Positions 3,004 through 32,758 of a stretch of DNA of 40,566 nt are shown here, piece by piece. This DNA is from Acidobacteriota bacterium (GTDB taxonomy: Bacteria > Acidobacteriota > Terriglobia > Terriglobales > Acidobacteriaceae): positions 1 to 40,566 of the forward strand of contig JAJZHE010000008.1 in NCBI GenBank assembly GCA_021804655.1, written 5' to 3'. The translations under genes were made by a program, and so were the position numbers. The notes beneath the pieces are model-generated. The model had not been told where the DNA came from. It was given only the letters and a program-made list of their open reading frames with translations, and made no database searches. Position 1 is the first letter of the stretch. Each line of letters begins with the position of its first letter.

Positions 3004-4005
3004 ATGCCGGAGAAACCACGATATCAGGTACTGGTGTTGAGCGAAGATGCAGCGCTTCAGGAGAGATTGCGACTGGCGTTGCAATTGCAGGAAGTGAACC
3101 TGGAGACGGCACAGGATGCGACGGAGTTGCTGAATTTGGTGCAGAAGTTACGGGTTGGATCGGTGATCCTGCTGGATGGCGCGGTGCGAGCGGTGGAAAG
3201 CGGACAACTGCTGGCAGCGTTGCAGGAGGCAGGGACGGGACAACGCTGCGCAGTGGGAGTGATCAGCGCTCCTGTGACAGGCGAGGACGAACAGGACGAG
3301 GCTGCGGCGCTGTGGAGCCGACGGCTGCGCGATGGCGTGATGGACGACATCCTGCCGCGAGAAACATCGCGGCAGCAGTGGTCGCTGCGCTTGAGCGCTC
3401 TGCGGCGTATTCACCTGTTGCGCAGCGAGCTGGCGCATCTGCGCGATTGTTCTTTGGCGCAGTCTGAACGCGACCGGCTGACGGGCACGATGAACCGCGA
3501 CGCGATTCTTTCGATTCTGTTTCGTGAGACGGATCGAGTGCAGCGGTTGAATCAGGGGCTGTGCGTGATTCTGTTGGATATTGACGACTTTGGGCACTGG
3601 AATGCGGAGCTTGGCATTGAGGCGTGTGACGATCTGCTGCGCAGGATAGCCCAGCGGATTCAGTCGCTGCTGCGCAGCTATGACATGCTGGGTCGGATGG
3701 GCGACGATGAGTTTCTGCTTGCGTTGCCTGGGTGCAGCAACGTGAATGCGGTGCTGTTGGCGGAACGGCTGCGCACGGATATCTTCGACGTTCCGTTTGA
3801 AGTGGGCGGGAGAAGCATTCGCCTGAGCGCATGTTTTGCGGTTGCCGAGAGCAAGGGTCGGTCGCCGGTGGTGGTGCTGCGCGATGCCGAGCAGGCGCTT
3901 CAGGAGGCTCGACTGCGCGGGCCGGATCACATTCGCAGCGCGAGCAAAAACACCTATGGCTGGGATACCGAGTTTACCGTTGATGCGCGTGTGCTTCCCG
4001 CTTAA
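3004..4005 (+). CDS. Receiver-like plus degenerate GGDEF protein (probably not a cyclase)
   Basis: A 333-residue cytoplasmic protein. Residues 7-130 resemble a response-regulator receiver: acidic pair E14-D15 and candidate phosphoacceptor D58 in VILLDG, but the usual C-terminal lysine is not evident. Residues 155-315 are a GGDEF domain. The signature reads GDDEF (233-237) instead of GGDEF, and the substrate-binding stretch reads FGHWNAELGIEACD where active cyclases have a FKxxND-YGHxxGD pattern. The first metal-binding aspartate (LLDIDDF) remains. An RxxD inhibitory site (RSYD) sits exactly five residues before the signature. In GGDEF proteins this combination often means lost diguanylate cyclase activity with retained c-di-GMP binding. 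ATG 3004 follows GGAGG at 2994-2998. The stop codon lies inside the left arm of an inverted repeat. Confidence 0.85.
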   Translation: MPEKPRYQVLVLSEDAALQERLRLALQLQEVNLETAQDATELLNLVQKLRVGSVILLDGAVRAVESGQLLAALQEAGTGQRCAVGVISAPVTGEDEQDEAAALWSRRLRDGVMDDILPRETSRQQWSLRLSALRRIHLLRSELAHLRDCSLAQSERDRLTGTMNRDAILSILFRETDRVQRLNQGLCVILLDIDDFGHWNAELGIEACDDLLRRIAQRIQSLLRSYDMLGRMGDDEFLLALPGCSNVNAVLLAERLRTDIFDVPFEVGGRSIRLSACFAVAESKGRSPVVVLRDAEQALQEARLRGPDHIRSASKNTYGWDTEFTVDARVLPA

Positions 4006-13136: not shown

Positions 13137-13200
13137 CTTCTGGATAGATTGCGCGCTGGTGACTCTGGCTTGTGATCGAGGACCGAACCTGGAGCACGGA

Positions 13201-14493
13201 ATGGACTGGACGAAAATTCCGGATCTGCTGGCGATTGCAGCCCTGGTCGGTGCTTTTTATTCCATTCTTCGCCGCGAACCCGAGCATAACGATGAGCTTC
13301 CCGGAACCCCCTTTGCGGATTCGCGGCAATGGCTTTTTTCCTGGGTACTGATTCTGATCCACTTTGCCGCCAGCATGGTGGTGGTGCAGGACAACGGCTG
13401 GGGCAGCCTCGTCCTGTCGATCACGCTGATTTCTCTGGTGGCCGCGGCGGTTGAATTTATGCGCGCGTCGGTGCAGTATCGGCGCCATATTTCTTCCTAC
13501 TGGATGTCGGCGGCGCTGGGTATTCCTCCTTCGCTCTTCATCGTTCTTCTGGTCTTGCCCAGCGCTCCGGGGTGGATGTTCGCGGCAACCTCGGTGCTGA
13601 TCGCGATCGGCCCTCTGCTGGTGGGACTGCTCTCGCCACGTCGCCTGCTGGGCATGCCGCGATACGTTGTGATGACACTGTATCTTCTGCTGGGTACATC
13701 GCTGCTGCTCTTCGCTCCGCCGCGTACACAGGATGGAAGTTTTGCGCTGAACGCGATCCTGTTTACGGTTTATTTCGCTTGCTGCTTTGTCTTCTGGAGC
13801 AACTATCGGAAACGGAGCAGCGCAGGATCGGTGATCACAGTGGGAGGATTTCTGACCTGGGCTTCGGTTTTTGTGATTGGCCCAGTGCTGCAAATGCGTT
13901 TTCCCGCCATTCACATTGAAAGCGAAGTTTGGAATCTGCCGAAGTATGTGGTCGCGGTGGGAATGCTGCTGCTGTTGCTGGAAAATCAAATTGAGCGCTC
14001 GCAATATCTTGCCCTGCACGACGATCTGACGACGCTGGCGAACCGCCGCCTGTTTCAGACCCATCTCAACGAATGTATACAGAGATGTGCGGAATCGAAG
14101 AAAAAGGTTGGCTTGTTGCAGATTGACCTGGACCGATTCAAGCAGGTGAATGATCTGTATGGCCATCACGTCGGCGATCTGCTGCTGCAGCAGGTGGCTG
14201 ACCGAATGCGCTCTCGGATTCGCCGCGGGGACATGCTGGCGCGTACGGGCGGCGATGAGTTTTCCGTGGTTCTGGCCGATCTGGAAAGATCGGAAGACGT
14301 GGAGGCGGTTGCCGATTCGCTGGTGGAGCTGCTGCATTTGCCTTTTTCAGTGGATCATCACGATCTGCACATCGGCGCAAGCGTGGGATCGGCGATCTAT
14401 CCCGACGATGCGCGCGACGCCTCGAATCTGTATATTGCCGCGGACCTGCGCATGTATGAGGAAAAGGAACTCCACCGCGGCATGAATGCCTGA
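13201..14493 (+). CDS. Membrane-bound diguanylate cyclase (GGDEF)
   Basis: A 430-residue protein. Residues 1 to about 265 contain seven or eight hydrophobic segments, a MASE-like membrane sensor of unknown ligand. Residues 270-425 are a GGDEF domain with all key parts: DDLTTLANRR at the start, LDRFKQVNDLYGHHVGD for substrate and metal, GGDEF at 350-354, and the inhibitory RxxD site (RRGD) five residues before it. It should make c-di-GMP from two GTP at the inner membrane and be product-inhibited. ATG 13201 follows GGAG by six bases; the GTG at 13159 has no such site. A sigma-28-like promoter upstream suggests expression with motility genes. A strong hairpin terminator follows. Confidence 0.92.
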   Translation: MDWTKIPDLLAIAALVGAFYSILRREPEHNDELPGTPFADSRQWLFSWVLILIHFAASMVVVQDNGWGSLVLSITLISLVAAAVEFMRASVQYRRHISSYWMSAALGIPPSLFIVLLVLPSAPGWMFAATSVLIAIGPLLVGLLSPRRLLGMPRYVVMTLYLLLGTSLLLFAPPRTQDGSFALNAILFTVYFACCFVFWSNYRKRSSAGSVITVGGFLTWASVFVIGPVLQMRFPAIHIESEVWNLPKYVVAVGMLLLLLENQIERSQYLALHDDLTTLANRRLFQTHLNECIQRCAESKKKVGLLQIDLDRFKQVNDLYGHHVGDLLLQQVADRMRSRIRRGDMLARTGGDEFSVVLADLERSEDVEAVADSLVELLHLPFSVDHHDLHIGASVGSAIYPDDARDASNLYIAADLRMYEEKELHRGMNA

Positions 14494-20582: not shown

Positions 20583-21476
20583 TCAGAGTTTGTCGAAGAG
20601 GCTGCCGGAGCCAAGCGCGGCAATCACGTTGATCAGCGCCGTCTGCTGCGACTTGACCAGAGAAAGCTGCGTGGAGACTCCGGGAATATCGGCCTGTATC
20701 AGGTTGGTCTGCACCGTGGTCAACTGCGTCTGTGAACTGGATGCCGCAGAGGTTGCCGTCGTCAGCCGCGAGATCGAGTTATCGAGCGAGACACGCTGCT
20801 GACTGACAAAGTTGAGAGCGGAGTTGAGCGCAGCGGTATCGGCTGCTCCGGCTGCGGAGTTGCCATTGGCAAAGTCCGCAATGATGTTGTTCAACGCGCC
20901 AAGAACATTGGCGGTGGAAGAGGTGAAAACCTGATTGCCGGGAATGTTGAGCGCGATGGGCTGTCCATTCGGAGTCTGCAACTGATTGACAACACTGTCG
21001 CCGTTGTAGGTGACCGTGGCTGGGGAAGTGCTGGCGTTCAACGTGAACGGCGGACCGCTGGTCTGGCTGCCGCCAAAGACGTATTGCCCCTGGTAGCTGG
21101 TGTTGGCCAGCGAAAGCACCTCGTCGCGAATGCCCGCAAGCTGATTGGAGGCCGCTTGCATCTGTGAAGTGTTCAATGTTCCGTTGCTACCCTGGGTTCC
21201 GAGCGAGATCGCGTCGTTCAACTGGGTGACGACACTGCCCAGCGCAGAGTCGGTGACGTTGAGCATACCCTGCGCAAGATTGGATGTCTGCGTGAAGGAA
21301 TCCTCGATTCCGATCTGATTGAGTAACTGCGTATTCTGCGCCGCTGCCACCGGGTTCTGTCCGATGCTGGTTACGCCAAGACCGCTCGAAAGCTCCGTGG
21401 AAAGCTGCTGCTCAGTGGCCTGCGTCTGGTCCAGCGCACTGCTCAGATTGGTCACAAAAAACGGATTCACTCGCAT
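20583..21476 (-). CDS. flgL: Flagellar hook-filament junction protein FlgL
   Basis: A 297-residue flagellin-like junction protein. Residues 1-60 (MRVNPFFVTNLSSALDQ, then TELSSGLGVTSIGQNPVAAAQ) and the last 60 or so (LDNSISRLTTATSAASSSQTQLT onward) form the paired helical ends of the flagellin family. The middle has the FlgL feature GQYVFGGSQTSGPPF. FlgL with FlgK connects hook and filament outside the cell and is exported by the flagellar type III system with FlgN. It is the last gene of the cluster, 66 bases after flgK. ATG 21476 aligns with the family start; the frame extends to 21515 without homology. Confidence 0.92.
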   Translation of the reverse strand: MRVNPFFVTNLSSALDQTQATEQQLSTELSSGLGVTSIGQNPVAAAQNTQLLNQIGIEDSFTQTSNLAQGMLNVTDSALGSVVTQLNDAISLGTQGSNGTLNTSQMQAASNQLAGIRDEVLSLANTSYQGQYVFGGSQTSGPPFTLNASTSPATVTYNGDSVVNQLQTPNGQPIALNIPGNQVFTSSTANVLGALNNIIADFANGNSAAGAADTAALNSALNFVSQQRVSLDNSISRLTTATSAASSSQTQLTTVQTNLIQADIPGVSTQLSLVKSQQTALINVIAALGSGSLFDKL

Positions 21477-21542
21477 GGGATCACTCGCTTCCTGCCGGAC
21501 CTGCCGACGATCCATGAAGCCGTCGCGCAGGCGTGCATGGTG

Positions 21543-28973: not shown

Positions 28974-29459
28974 CTATTGCAGGCCGTCGCAGATGATGGT
29001 GACTTCAAAGACGGAAGCATCGAAGCGATAGCAGTGATGCAGGCGAAACTCTGGCGCCTGCACGTGAATGTTGTAATTGCTGCCGGTAATCACCGCAGGA
29101 ATCGAAAGGCCGCAGCGAGCGGAAAGCTCCGGTACCTTGCCCTTCCAGGCGCCAGCCAACATGTTGCCGATCTCGCCGATGGCGTCTTTGACCGTATCAT
29201 CCAGCTCCGTAAAACTCATGCCGGTCAAACGCGCCGCAATCGCCAGCGCCGTTGCTTCGCTGCACCGAAAGACACAGGCTCCGGTGAGCACGCCACCAAA
29301 GCCAACGACCGACGTAATCGTCTCCGTCGGCGTGCTGCCCGCGCATGGAACCATCTCGCATTGCGCGCCAAGCATGGTGGCAAAGACCTCTTCCACGCTG
29401 GATTGCAGATGGACAGGATCGGCAACCGTTTGAAGATTCTCCCGCAGCGACAGCGACAT
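28974..29459 (-). CDS. cheX: CheX-like CheY-phosphate phosphatase
   Basis: A 161-residue protein of the CheC/CheX/FliY family. The single catalytic motif ExxN is E96-N99 in DAIGEIGNMLAGAWKGK, and GVLTGACVFRCSEATALAIAARLTGM is the preceding conserved part. CheX-type proteins dephosphorylate CheY-P and so end a chemotaxis response; the CheY gene lies directly upstream. ATG 29459 is used (GGGAGGA ten bases upstream), because the longer frame to 29624 overlaps the cheY end and is rich in Arg and Ser with no similarity. Confidence 0.85.
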   Translation of the reverse strand: MSLSLRENLQTVADPVHLQSSVEEVFATMLGAQCEMVPCAGSTPTETITSVVGFGGVLTGACVFRCSEATALAIAARLTGMSFTELDDTVKDAIGEIGNMLAGAWKGKVPELSARCGLSIPAVITGSNYNIHVQAPEFRLHHCYRFDASVFEVTIICDGLQ

Positions 29460-29613
29460 AACTTTTTCGTCCTCCCGATTGTTCAATCCCATGACCCAGG
29501 ATGACTGCTCCTGGCTGCGCGGCGCTCCTGAATGCACTGCTTCTCGATGTAACGACTGCATCCTGCGCCGTATTCCCCGCACGCATCTCCGGCAACTTCT
29601 CGGAGACATTCCC

Positions 29614-29994
29614 TCAAGCGGCAATCAAAGGCAGTACCCGCTCCTTGACCTGATCCGCCGTGAACGGTTTCCGAATATAGCCCTGCGCACCGGACTGGAT
29701 CGCCTGCCGCACATGCTCCTCGCTGGACTCGGTGGTAATCATGACCACCGGCACGCCATCGGCCAGATTCTGCGCGCGCAACTGGCGCAGAAATTCAAGG
29801 CCATCCATGGAAGGCATGTTGATATCCGACAGGATCAACTGCACCTGATTGGCGCGCAACGCCTCCAGCCCCTCAACACCGCTGCCTGCTTCCAGAACCA
29901 CCAGCGGCTCCAGTCCTGCCTGACGCAGCGCGCGCTCGACGATCTTGCGCATCACCGACGAGTCGTCCACAATCAATACTCGAGTTTCACTCAT
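29614..29994 (-). CDS. cheY: CheY-type single-domain response regulator
   Basis: A 126-residue receiver domain with nothing attached. The acidic pocket is D10-D11, the phosphoacceptor D57 (LILSDINMPSMDG), the switch threonine T87 or T88 (MITTESS), and the lysine K109 (IRKPF). The lengths between motifs are those of chemotaxis CheY, which binds the FliM/FliN switch to change motor rotation; fliM and fliN lie two to three genes upstream and cheX follows. ATG 29994 follows GGGGAG. A sigma-28-type promoter is placed between the preceding gene and cheY. Confidence 0.9.
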   Translation of the reverse strand: MSETRVLIVDDSSVMRKIVERALRQAGLEPLVVLEAGSGVEGLEALRANQVQLILSDINMPSMDGLEFLRQLRAQNLADGVPVVMITTESSEEHVRQAIQSGAQGYIRKPFTADQVKERVLPLIAA

Positions 29995-30030
29995 GCAGGC
30001 TCCCCTTCCCATCTCATCCCGACAACCCAT

Positions 30031-30060: not shown

Positions 30061-31008
30061 TCACTCCTGCGTCAAAGCGCAGATCACATCCTCCACACTT
30101 CCGGGGTCGCGCAAAGGCCCGGCGAGATTCCTGCGCCACATGCGCAGCCAGAGAAAATCGTGGAGACGCACCAGCCTGGACTGCACCGGCTTCACTTTTT
30201 CGATCACGCGGCTGAGCGCTCGTCCCAGTTGCGCTTCGCTGGAAACCTCCAGCAACTCGACGCGTGGAAAAGGCAGGGTGAGAATGCGCGTATGCGCCAC
30301 GCGAAACTCTCTGTCCGGCACCAGCACCGCTTCGACCCGAAGACCCAGCATGCGCTCCATGGCAAAGGCCAGGACAGGGTCTGGACGATCCTCGAAGCCC
30401 ACATACAACAGACGCTCCCCGGAGATGCGCAAGGGCAGTGCGCCAAAGGCATCGACAAAAAGCCGCGGCAAAGCTGGAGCCATCGCCTCCCCGTCGTGAT
30501 AGGGCAGCGCGACCACCGGACAGCTCCATTGCAAGCCCAGCGCACGCGCCACCAACTGCTCACTGACCCCCTCCTGCTGTACCAGCCATCTTCCCAGACG
30601 ACCGTCCCCGGCGCGCTTCTGCGCCTCCAGCGCGCGCCGCAGTTGTCCGGCATCGATCCACTGCTGCTCCAGCATGACCAGGCCCAGCGGAATTCTGTGT
30701 CGATAGACGCGCGTCTCCTGACTGCGACCCTCCATCTCCCGACGCACCGCCTGCTCCACGCGCTTCTGCGTGCAGCCCGCCGAACACGTCCAACCCTGCT
30801 CAAAGACAGGCACCGTCCGCCGACGCAGCAGACGCATCCAGCCGGTCGCGCAGTCCGGGTTGGCGCATCGCGTGAAGATTCCGCCGAGCGACTCGGCTTG
30901 CCGTTCCGGCTGAACCGAATCCAGCGGCGGCGATGCAGACTCCGGCAACCGCTGGCCTGCTTCGGCAGCGCCAGGCCGCCGGCGTTCTTCCGGTTCTAAA
31001 ACAGGCAT
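30061..31008 (-). CDS. Zinc-finger plus MshEN/GspE-N-like protein, possible c-di-GMP sensor
   Basis: A 315-residue cytoplasmic protein without a named homologue that I know. A candidate zinc site uses C48, C53, C75 and C79 (CANPDC and WTCSAGC). Residues 106-165 hold two copies of the helix-turn pattern of the MshEN (GspE N-terminal) domain: IPLGLVMLEQQWIDAGQLRRAL and GRLGRWLVQQEGVSEQLVARAL. In MshE this tandem motif binds c-di-GMP. The remaining 150 residues look like the second half of a GspE N-terminal domain, but no ATPase domain follows. The gene overlaps fliN by 13 bases and precedes cheY, so a role at or near the switch complex is likely. The ligand is inferred. Confidence 0.7.
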   Translation of the reverse strand: MPVLEPEERRRPGAAEAGQRLPESASPPLDSVQPERQAESLGGIFTRCANPDCATGWMRLLRRRTVPVFEQGWTCSAGCTQKRVEQAVRREMEGRSQETRVYRHRIPLGLVMLEQQWIDAGQLRRALEAQKRAGDGRLGRWLVQQEGVSEQLVARALGLQWSCPVVALPYHDGEAMAPALPRLFVDAFGALPLRISGERLLYVGFEDRPDPVLAFAMERMLGLRVEAVLVPDREFRVAHTRILTLPFPRVELLEVSSEAQLGRALSRVIEKVKPVQSRLVRLHDFLWLRMWRRNLAGPLRDPGSVEDVICALTQE

Positions 31009-31799
31009 CGAATGCTCTCCAGTCTGCGCTGCGGCTCAGCCACCTGCGTCACACGCAAGCCAAAGTTGCCATTGACCAGCACCACCTCGCCACGCGCCAC
31101 AATCTTGTCTCCCACCACCAGGTCCACCGGGTCGCTGATGTGCCGGTCAAGCTGCACCACATCGCCCGGACCCAGATCGAGAATCTCCCCCAGCGGCATC
31201 TCGCGCGAACCGAAGCGCAGCGATGCCTCCAGCTCGACATCGAGCAGCAACTGCAAACCTTCCGAGAGAACTGCGGTCTCCGGAGCCTGATCCATGCGCC
31301 CCGACGTCGACGCGGCAACCGGCTCACGGACACTCTCCGTCGATGCCGGGACAGGCTCCGGCGCCGCTTCCTTCTTTGCAGGCTTCAGGTCGCTGGCCAC
31401 TAACACCGTCCAGCTTCGCTCACCGGCACTCAACTGAAAAGCTCGCGTAATCTTGCTCTCCGGCTGCGCTTCGCCAAACGCAGTCACCTGGCATTTCGCT
31501 CCGCTGCGCGCCAGCAGATCGCCGGCGGCGGCCTCCACCGTCTCCCGCAACAACTCCGCCCACGCAGCCTGCTCATCGGCAACATCGCCGAAGAGCGACG
31601 CACCCAGCAACCCGCCATCAAGCAGAATGACGAAGCGCCCCTGCTCCTCACCGTCCACGGTGGCCGCAAAACCGAACGACCCCTCCGGCAACGGCTTCGG
31701 CAGCGCGTCCGTGAGCACCGGCTCGCCCACCAGCGCCTGGCTCAGCAGGCTGGTGGCCACCTGAATCCAACAATCCAGAAATCGAAGCGATTGCGTCAT
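30996..31799 (-). CDS. fliN: FliN/FliY-like flagellar motor switch protein
   Basis: A 267-residue protein, twice the usual FliN length. Residues about 10-140 resemble a CheC/CheX-type fold without a clear ExxN motif; a Pro/Ala/Glu linker (about 142-178) follows. The C-terminal SpoA domain (about 182-258) is the FliN hallmark: LLLDVELEASLRFGSREMPLGEILDLGPGDVVQL and DLVVGDKIVARGEVVLVNGNFGLRVTQV. This is the FliY layout known from Bacillus and Thermotoga, though probably without phosphatase activity. It forms the C-ring with FliM. ATG 31799 overlaps the fliM stop by one base (TGATG). Confidence 0.88.
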   Translation of the reverse strand: MTQSLRFLDCWIQVATSLLSQALVGEPVLTDALPKPLPEGSFGFAATVDGEEQGRFVILLDGGLLGASLFGDVADEQAAWAELLRETVEAAAGDLLARSGAKCQVTAFGEAQPESKITRAFQLSAGERSWTVLVASDLKPAKKEAAPEPVPASTESVREPVAASTSGRMDQAPETAVLSEGLQLLLDVELEASLRFGSREMPLGEILDLGPGDVVQLDRHISDPVDLVVGDKIVARGEVVLVNGNFGLRVTQVAEPQRRLESIRCLF

Positions 31800-32758
31800 C
31801 ACACTGCTCCCTCTTCCATCGCCGTCTCCAGGCGCGCACCGCGGTGCCCACCCATGCGGATCGGTTGCGCTTCAAAGAGAAGCTGACCGCCGACACGCAG
31901 CTCCGAGAGCCGGTTGACCGGCAGATTCAGGCGAATCAACTTGCCGGGAGCCAGATCTTCCAGCTCACGCGCCTCAATACGCACGGAGGGTAGCTGCAAA
32001 GCGGCCCCGAAGCGCAGTCGGCGCGCGGCTTCTTCGATACGCTGACGCGCCTCGGTTGCGTGACGACGGCGACCGCTCCACTCCCCGATCAGCCGCCGCA
32101 GGATAGTGTTGGCGACGACCGCGGGAAAGGCCAGGTTCAGCAGTCCGGAAGACTCCTGCATGCGGATCTCAAAGCTGAGACAAAGCGTCTTCTCCGTCAC
32201 CGGCATGATCCTCGCCGTCTGGGTCTGCATCTGCCGCCGTTCATAGTTGAAGCTCAACCCGACCGACTGCCAGGCAGTCGTCAGTTCGCGACAGACAATC
32301 TCCACGACGCTGGCCACAATCGCCTCTTCGATATCCGTCAGCTCACGCAACTCACCGGGCTGACCCTCGCCACCCAGCAGCAGATCGACCATCGCCGGCG
32401 CCATGCCCAGATCAAGCTGCAAGACGGAAAGCGCTCCCAGCGGCTCCAGCCGCACCGAGGCAACGTAGGAGATCTCCGGAATGCGCAGCAGAAACTCATT
32501 GAACGGAATCTGCTCGGCAGAGACCAGATTCACCTGCAGCCGCGTGCGCAGCCAGGCGGAGAGATTATGCGTCAGGTTGCGCGCAAAGAGATCGTTCAGA
32601 ATGCTGATAGCGCGGAGTTGATCGTTGGAAATCTGTCCTGCTGAAGCAAAGTTATACGGCAGAATACGCGCTTTGACCGAGCCGGGCGCCTCCGGAGCGG
32701 TGGAGCGCGCAGCCTGAAACAATGCGTCGATCTCATTCTGCTTGAGAGTCTTTTCCAT
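31799..32758 (-). CDS. fliM: Flagellar motor switch protein FliM
   Basis: A 319-residue FliM. The N-terminus MEKTLKQNEIDALFQAA carries the LxQxEIDALF segment that binds phosphorylated CheY in the family. The middle CheC-like domain includes LLRIPEISYVASVRLEPLGALSVLQLDLGMAPAMVDLLLGG, and the C-terminal SpoA domain ends NRLSELRVGGQLLFEAQPIRMGG. It sits at the cytoplasmic face and links CheY to rotation. It follows fliA after 129 bases; that gap shows no recognisable promoter. Confidence 0.95.
   Translation of the reverse strand: MEKTLKQNEIDALFQAARSTAPEAPGSVKARILPYNFASAGQISNDQLRAISILNDLFARNLTHNLSAWLRTRLQVNLVSAEQIPFNEFLLRIPEISYVASVRLEPLGALSVLQLDLGMAPAMVDLLLGGEGQPGELRELTDIEEAIVASVVEIVCRELTTAWQSVGLSFNYERRQMQTQTARIMPVTEKTLCLSFEIRMQESSGLLNLAFPAVVANTILRRLIGEWSGRRRHATEARQRIEEAARRLRFGAALQLPSVRIEARELEDLAPGKLIRLNLPVNRLSELRVGGQLLFEAQPIRMGGHRGARLETAMEEGAV

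Follow-up and report, generated by a model that had tools for sequence, protein, structure and literature searches.

Why should a protein with a c-di-GMP-type domain best known from pilus and secretion machines be encoded among the genes of the flagellar switch complex? The question is raised by a stretch of 40,566 nucleotides from an Acidobacteriota bacterium (the window), for which an earlier note had reported a tandem motif of the MshE/GspE type in a protein encoded inside the switch-complex operon. The location holds: the gene order is fliR-flhB-flhA-fliA-fliM-fliN-[Cys4-MshEN gene]-cheY-cheX-flgF-flgG (Table 1), and further on past flgG lie flgH, flgI, flgK and a flagellin-like gene (20583-21515). 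The reading frame begins with ATG, has a GGAG 8 nt ahead of this start, and overlaps the 3′ end of fliN by 13 nt. The codon changes between the window gene and three relatives, with dN 0.14 and dS 0.89 against the nearest of them (L003) and values of 0.17/0.86 and 0.20/1.23 against the other two, keep dN well below dS and therefore point to purifying selection. FliN itself carries an N-terminal extension of ∼180 residues that has no Pfam match at E 0.001 and is perhaps FliY-like.

Table 1. Positions of the Cys4-MshEN gene, its parts and its neighbours in the window.
Feature	Position	Strand	Basis or remark
Cys4-MshEN flagellar protein gene (315 aa)	30061..31008	-	Open reading frame and family members
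Four-cysteine, presumably zinc-binding segment (C48, C53, C75, C79) and following helix, residues 45-93	30730..30876	-	
MshEN (GspE_N / GSPII) domain, residues 104-245	30274..30699	-	Profiles and predicted structure
c-di-GMP motif, first 24-residue half (PLG...Q), residues 107-130	30619..30690	-	
c-di-GMP motif, second 24-residue half (RLG...Q), residues 137-160	30529..30600	-	
Small beta-alpha-beta-beta-beta C-terminal domain, residues 248-315	30064..30267	-	
fliN, 268 aa with N-terminal extension	30996..31802	-	3′ end overlaps the Cys4-MshEN gene by 13 nt
fliM	31799..32758	-	
cheY-like receiver	29614..29994	-	Start at MSETRV taken as likely; the list of open reading frames begins it at 30030
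cheX	28974..29624	-	

The protein is sub-divided into a low-confidence N-terminus (residues 1-42), the four-cysteine segment with its helix, the MshEN domain and the C-terminal domain. That the MshEN domain is genuine is seen from both profiles and predicted structure. The NCBIfam model NF053729 (MshE-related c-di-GMP motif) scores 40.3 bits over residues 107-159, above its cut-off of 38. Pfam MshEN (PF05157) falls just under its cut-off of 23.1 in an hmmscan of the window protein (21.4); in the genome search it scores 22.7, or 23.3 and thus just over the cut-off with the neighbours in frame, and two distant family members pass it clearly, at 49.0 and 35.9. A profile built from 30 relatives matches PDB chains of PilF, PilB and MshE over about positions 100-242 of the profile, stopping short of the ATPase. 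The AlphaFold2 model (mean pLDDT 85.8, pTM 0.80) contains the expected MshEN fold, a four-helix N-part followed by an alpha/beta C-part, and its best structural match is c-di-GMP-bound PilF GSPII-B (Z 12.7, 135 residues, rmsd 3.0 Å), and MshE also matches well (Z 11.6). The fold that had been read from the motif is thus present in the predicted structure.

The earlier note also held that no ATPase domain accompanies this MshEN domain, and this is borne out. The reading frame stops 70 residues past MshEN, with no RecA-like ATPase domain behind it, and hmmscan listed no Pfam family besides MshEN, and so no PilZ match, for the window protein up to E 10, a range in which the HMMER filters drop most matches above 0.1. 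With MshEN the sole Pfam family listed, we take the protein to have neither an ATPase nor a PilZ domain.

In front of the MshEN domain, C48, C75 and C79 are kept in all 38 rows of the family alignment and C53 in 37, and the four cysteines presumably hold zinc. Their segment is conserved in alignments A1 and A2, reaches pLDDT 70-97 by ten-residue blocks in the AlphaFold2 model, and has no Pfam match in the hmmscan of the window protein; it is a candidate for a treble-clef or TRASH-like zinc knuckle. Behind the MshEN domain, W287 and R289 of the C-terminal domain occur in 38/38 rows. Predicted alone, this domain is modelled confidently (pLDDT 90), and fold searches with it found nothing at E 0.001, PilB being absent from the matches listed. 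When the family is aligned profile to profile with 15 PilB proteins, the alignment extends into the start of PilB N2, and the C-terminal part alone matches the same collinear place with a score of 16.6, a weak match (E 0.085, probability 0.7%); the highest of 40 column shuffles reaches 14.8, and the reversed control 11.1. Given the weak profile match and no fold match at E 0.001, we do not adopt a remnant of PilB N2 as more than a tentative reading of the domain. Derivation from a truncated pilus ATPase would fit the profile matches, without these proving it.

A closer look at the c-di-GMP motif shows what is kept and what has changed. The earlier note described a tandem motif of the RLGxxL type; the tandem pair is there, and the RLG start holds for copy II and fails for copy I, which begins with PLG. 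Both copies of the window protein are off consensus at position 10; their motif glycines and terminal glutamines are intact. A core motif pattern, written after viewing the alignment, finds the tandem pair in the window protein and in 36 of the 38 family members aligned, where shuffled sequences give 0.02 on average; it arises in 50 of 100,000 shuffles of the window protein. The members lacking a regular pair are L037, with His at the first terminal Gln, and L038, with a longer linker. Gly109, Gly139 and Gln160 are kept in every one of the 38 rows and Gln130 in 36. Position 1 of motif I is Pro in 25 rows, Arg in 6, Lys in 4, Leu in 2 and Thr in 1, and several distant members (for example L080, L082, L083, L084 and L125) have RLG or KLG in both copies. 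An Arg stands two residues before motif I in 32/38 rows, and in 30/30 rows of A1; MshE likewise has an Arg (R7) two residues ahead of its motif I (PMC5013675).

Whether these residues still bind the ligand can be judged against published domains. The window protein fails the relaxed pattern of a 2016 survey in both copies, because position 10 is not Gly, Ala or Ser; among the 38 members the pattern finds at least one copy in 21 and both copies in one. A change at position 1 appears to be tolerated, since the search pattern of that survey permits Pro there (PMC5013675), and in PilF GSPII-B, a binding domain, the two copies have Lys and Leu at position 1, with the K167L variant still binding at 2 nM (PMC11731258). 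The non-binding GSPII-A domain of PilF has His and Arg at the two glutamine places and Ala at one of the glycine places, and it is reported to be non-binding even after the motif was restored, so that the motif alone does not prove binding (PMC12002112). Residue conservation, with the motif deviations taken into account, makes it quite probable that the window protein binds c-di-GMP.

The gene is tied to flagella across the phylum from which all genomes for the distribution were sampled. In a sample of 297 Acidobacteriota genomes the gene is carried by 39, all of them among the 74 genomes with FliM over its cut-off (a few of these FliM matches, as in G115 and G314, are weak and may not be flagellar) and none among the 223 others (Fisher 1.6e-28). 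In a set of 61 relatives, which shares some genomes with the phylum sample, it is found in 28 of 33 FliM-positive and 0 of 28 FliM-negative genomes (Fisher 2.3e-12), counting carriers at E 2.1e-16 or better; weaker matches are partial and mostly fall in reading frames of pilus-ATPase size. Both Fisher values are too small, because the co-occurrence tests ignore shared ancestry. A search of genome contigs gave eight loci, all titled Acidobacteria or Acidobacteriaceae.

Carriers separate cleanly from the remaining genomes. Profile A2 leaves a gap over the 297 genomes, with 39 at 185-362 bits and the rest at ≤126 bits. L120 and L125 entered A2 through fliM regions, so that the flagellar place helped to choose these two rows; A1, for which similarity was the sole criterion, still sets 37/39 carriers apart at E ≤4.1e-24, with one pilus-ATPase reading frame in the same range. 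A1 was built without L011-L017, which repeat either the window protein or loci already included, A2 without the near-duplicates L004, L006, L010, L020, L023 and L025, without L085, which is not at flagellar genes, and without L089, and A3 additionally without L087. Some MshEN-type match is found in 249/297 genomes, most of those listed being of pilus-ATPase size. A relative in G295 (L085:8249-9100), which scores 125 bits with A2, has the same layout and lies off the flagellar loci beside genes that by eye resemble secDF and tatD; the genome also has FliM.

No family-level copy is present in 35 of the 74 FliM-positive genomes, which marks the protein as accessory to the flagellum and not part of its core. 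Among the relatives, the FliM-positive genomes lacking the gene are G039, G045 and G047, all of one genus, together with G052 and G054. Of 20 fliM regions taken from genomes without a clear copy by A1, two have the gene (L120 and L125), and in the other 18 it was not recognised within the stretch available; its absence from L092, L114 and L116 says little, because these regions end soon after fliM or fliN. Where the gene is present, the protein diverges in step with the flagellar proteins FlhA and FliA: across 28 loci its pairwise distances correlate with those of FlhA (r 0.91), FliA (0.91), FliN (0.83) and FlgG (0.70), compared with 0.93 between FlhA and FliA themselves.

The place of the gene is also conserved, more narrowly than the earlier note supposed. 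It had pointed to a position near fliN or cheY; the fliN side holds across the phylum, and the cheY side is conserved much less. All 39 neighbourhoods were viewed, and in 37 of them none of the flagellar genes sought lies closer upstream than fliN; the contigs of G258 and G297 begin at the gene, with flgF and flgG downstream. In the relatives set fliN is upstream in 27/28 loci, and G012 starts at a contig edge. By tblastn of the window's flagellar proteins on the loci, fliN is seen upstream in relatives whose identity ranges from 80% to 23%. It adjoins the gene in the window's family (23/39 carriers) and lies a few hundred bases to 2 kb off in the other 16, where both are seen. In G024, G035, G250, G288 and G328 fliM is elsewhere and the gene still follows fliN. 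The cheY gene is downstream in 21 of the 28 relatives-set loci, and in five of the 39 phylum-sample loci, four of these five in the window's family; most of the 39 were read only 1.5 kb past the gene.

Outside the window's class, five loci were inspected reading frame by reading frame. In each, a small protein lies between fliN and the gene (L077:8310-8729, L079:9651-10109, L081:8802-9260, L082 and L086), by eye with one transmembrane segment, a coiled coil and an HTH-like part. The three that were scanned have hits to DUF2802 and DUF6115, the families of FipA and SwrB, none of which reaches its Pfam cut-off. Two of these five loci additionally have an HDOD-type protein between fliN and the gene. 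Some FliM-positive loci without the gene have, between fliN and flgF, a protein that by eye resembles HDOD or DUF2802 proteins; in L129 and L126 it looks HDOD-like. In L079 and L086, reading frames of 96-97 aa resembling the C-terminal part of FlhB lie between the gene and flgF.

We propose, at about even chances, that the Cys4-MshEN protein is a dedicated flagellar c-di-GMP receptor that acts on the C-ring, probably via FliN, as a brake or switch-biaser. A rise in c-di-GMP would load the MshEN domain, and the loaded domain would contact the C-ring, most likely FliN, in a different way and thereby slow or bias the motor. In enterobacteria YcgR has this kind of effect with a domain that is unrelated. 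This reading as a motor regulator draws on the kept c-di-GMP domain, the place behind fliN, the lack of any YcgR-type N-domain (0/41 genomes), the six GGDEF proteins encoded in this genome, and the patchy presence of the gene. The target should be the C-ring by analogy with YcgR, and gene order singles out FliN, which we infer to be the partner; for the sign of the effect we assume braking, the usual one for c-di-GMP. The brake or adaptor role put forward in the earlier note is thus plausible, with support on two of its points, the MshEN fold and the place behind fliN. A 319-aa protein with two PilZ domains, also encoded in this genome, could serve the motor instead.

The window contains two of the GGDEF genes, at 3004-4005 and 13159-14493. 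Of the flagellar genes found, the flagellin-like one is closest to them, at distances of about 17 and 6 kb. As candidate partners we give them little weight, for they are on the opposite strand among housekeeping genes.

Alternatively, the protein may be a c-di-GMP-dependent regulator of flagellar assembly or export and not of rotation, restraining or licensing C-ring completion or the export gate, with its zinc and C-terminal parts binding an assembly factor. The small DUF2802/DUF6115-like protein between fliN and the gene in the five loci outside the window's class would suit such a role, as DUF2802 proteins such as FipA organise polar flagellum formation (PMC11620751), SwrB of Bacillus subtilis activates the export apparatus (PMC4526659), and in pilus and secretion systems MshEN is itself part of the assembly ATPase. 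However, no such neighbour separates the gene from fliN in the window's class, the 35 FliM-positive genomes lacking the gene imply that assembly does not always need it, and L124, L126 and L128 keep such a small protein (by eye) yet have no Cys4-MshEN gene; we consider a role in assembly unlikely. That the flagellar place is an accident of gene order, the protein serving a type IV pilus or another system, would suit the nearest solved relatives, which are pilus ATPase domains, and the G295 relative away from flagella. We find this barely credible, as all 39 carriers are FliM-positive while MshEN-type matches in general are spread over most of the sample, and as the divergence keeps step with FlhA and FliA.

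Two further explanations keep the protein at the flagellum and change what it does there. The MshEN domain may have lost ligand binding, as in XpsE, and serve as a mere protein adaptor at the C-ring. MshEN domains that do not bind have been described (PMC5013675; PMC12002112), and both the Pro at position 1 of motif I in 25/38 rows and the loss of the position-10 Gly in the window's clade lean this way; but the residues lost in GSPII-A, the terminal glutamines and one motif Gly, are kept across the family, and the distant members with RLG or KLG in both copies speak for a functional site, so that a ligand-free adaptor seems to us improbable. As an input to chemotaxis, the protein would couple c-di-GMP to CheY or CheX and so alter switching frequency and not torque. 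Such a coupling would suit the window, where cheY and cheX lie directly downstream, and the relatives set, where cheY follows the gene in most carriers; MshEN is also joined to CheA and CheX in other proteins (PMC5013675). Across the phylum, however, the neighbour that is kept is fliN (37/39 loci) and not cheY (5/39, most read for 1.5 kb), and we regard an input to chemotaxis as improbable.

The reading as a C-ring receptor can be extended to the history of the phylum. A pilus-type c-di-GMP sensor may have been recruited early in Acidobacteriota as an accessory C-ring subunit, with its zinc and C-terminal parts on FliN, and may serve as the phylum's YcgR-independent brake or clutch. We offer this tentatively and think it somewhat more likely wrong than right. 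If it is true, one class of sensor would control pili and flagella in the same cell.

The earlier note knew of no flagellar protein of this layout, and searches of the open-licence literature agree: among the matches listed, no title or abstract deals with such a protein, and within that literature it appears to be undescribed. The part of the 2016 survey at hand names MshEN fusions with CheA and CheX and no flagellar operon protein (PMC5013675). Action of c-di-GMP on the motor is known mainly for PilZ proteins of a few well-studied bacteria (PMC13432727). If the C-ring genes do include a dedicated MshEN receptor, this control problem would have been solved a second time with unrelated parts, and c-di-GMP would have a route to the motor in bacteria that lack YcgR. 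The Cys4-MshEN protein also gives a definite gene and a soluble protein to work with in a phylum of widespread soil bacteria.

Compared with known systems, the protein shares with MshE of Vibrio cholerae and PilF GSPII-B of Thermus thermophilus the fold of the whole domain, the tandem 24-residue motif, the motif glycines and the terminal glutamines. It differs from both in having no ATPase, in the four-cysteine segment in front, in the place of its gene behind fliN, and in the Pro at motif position 1 of the window protein and 24 more of the 38 rows. Use of MshEN outside an ATPase is shared with NfrB of E. coli, a glycosyltransferase with a C-terminal MshEN domain, whose model gives the lowest E-value among the NCBIfam models (1.5e-12, residues 105-235), with 46.7 bits, far under the whole-protein cut-off of 1170. 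Unlike NfrB, the Cys4-MshEN protein has no glycosyltransferase or membrane part, and its gene is not beside exopolysaccharide genes. FipA and SwrB (DUF2802, DUF6115) resemble it as products of accessory flagellar genes, and a similar small protein neighbours the gene in other Acidobacteriota classes; they differ as small membrane proteins without MshEN or a four-cysteine segment. Closest in proposed function are YcgR and other PilZ flagellar brakes, c-di-GMP receptors acting on the rotor, of which YcgR acts on MotA, FliG and FliM (PMC13432727; PMC12713396). In contrast to YcgR, the Cys4-MshEN protein would do so with an unrelated domain, and its gene sits in the C-ring gene block itself.
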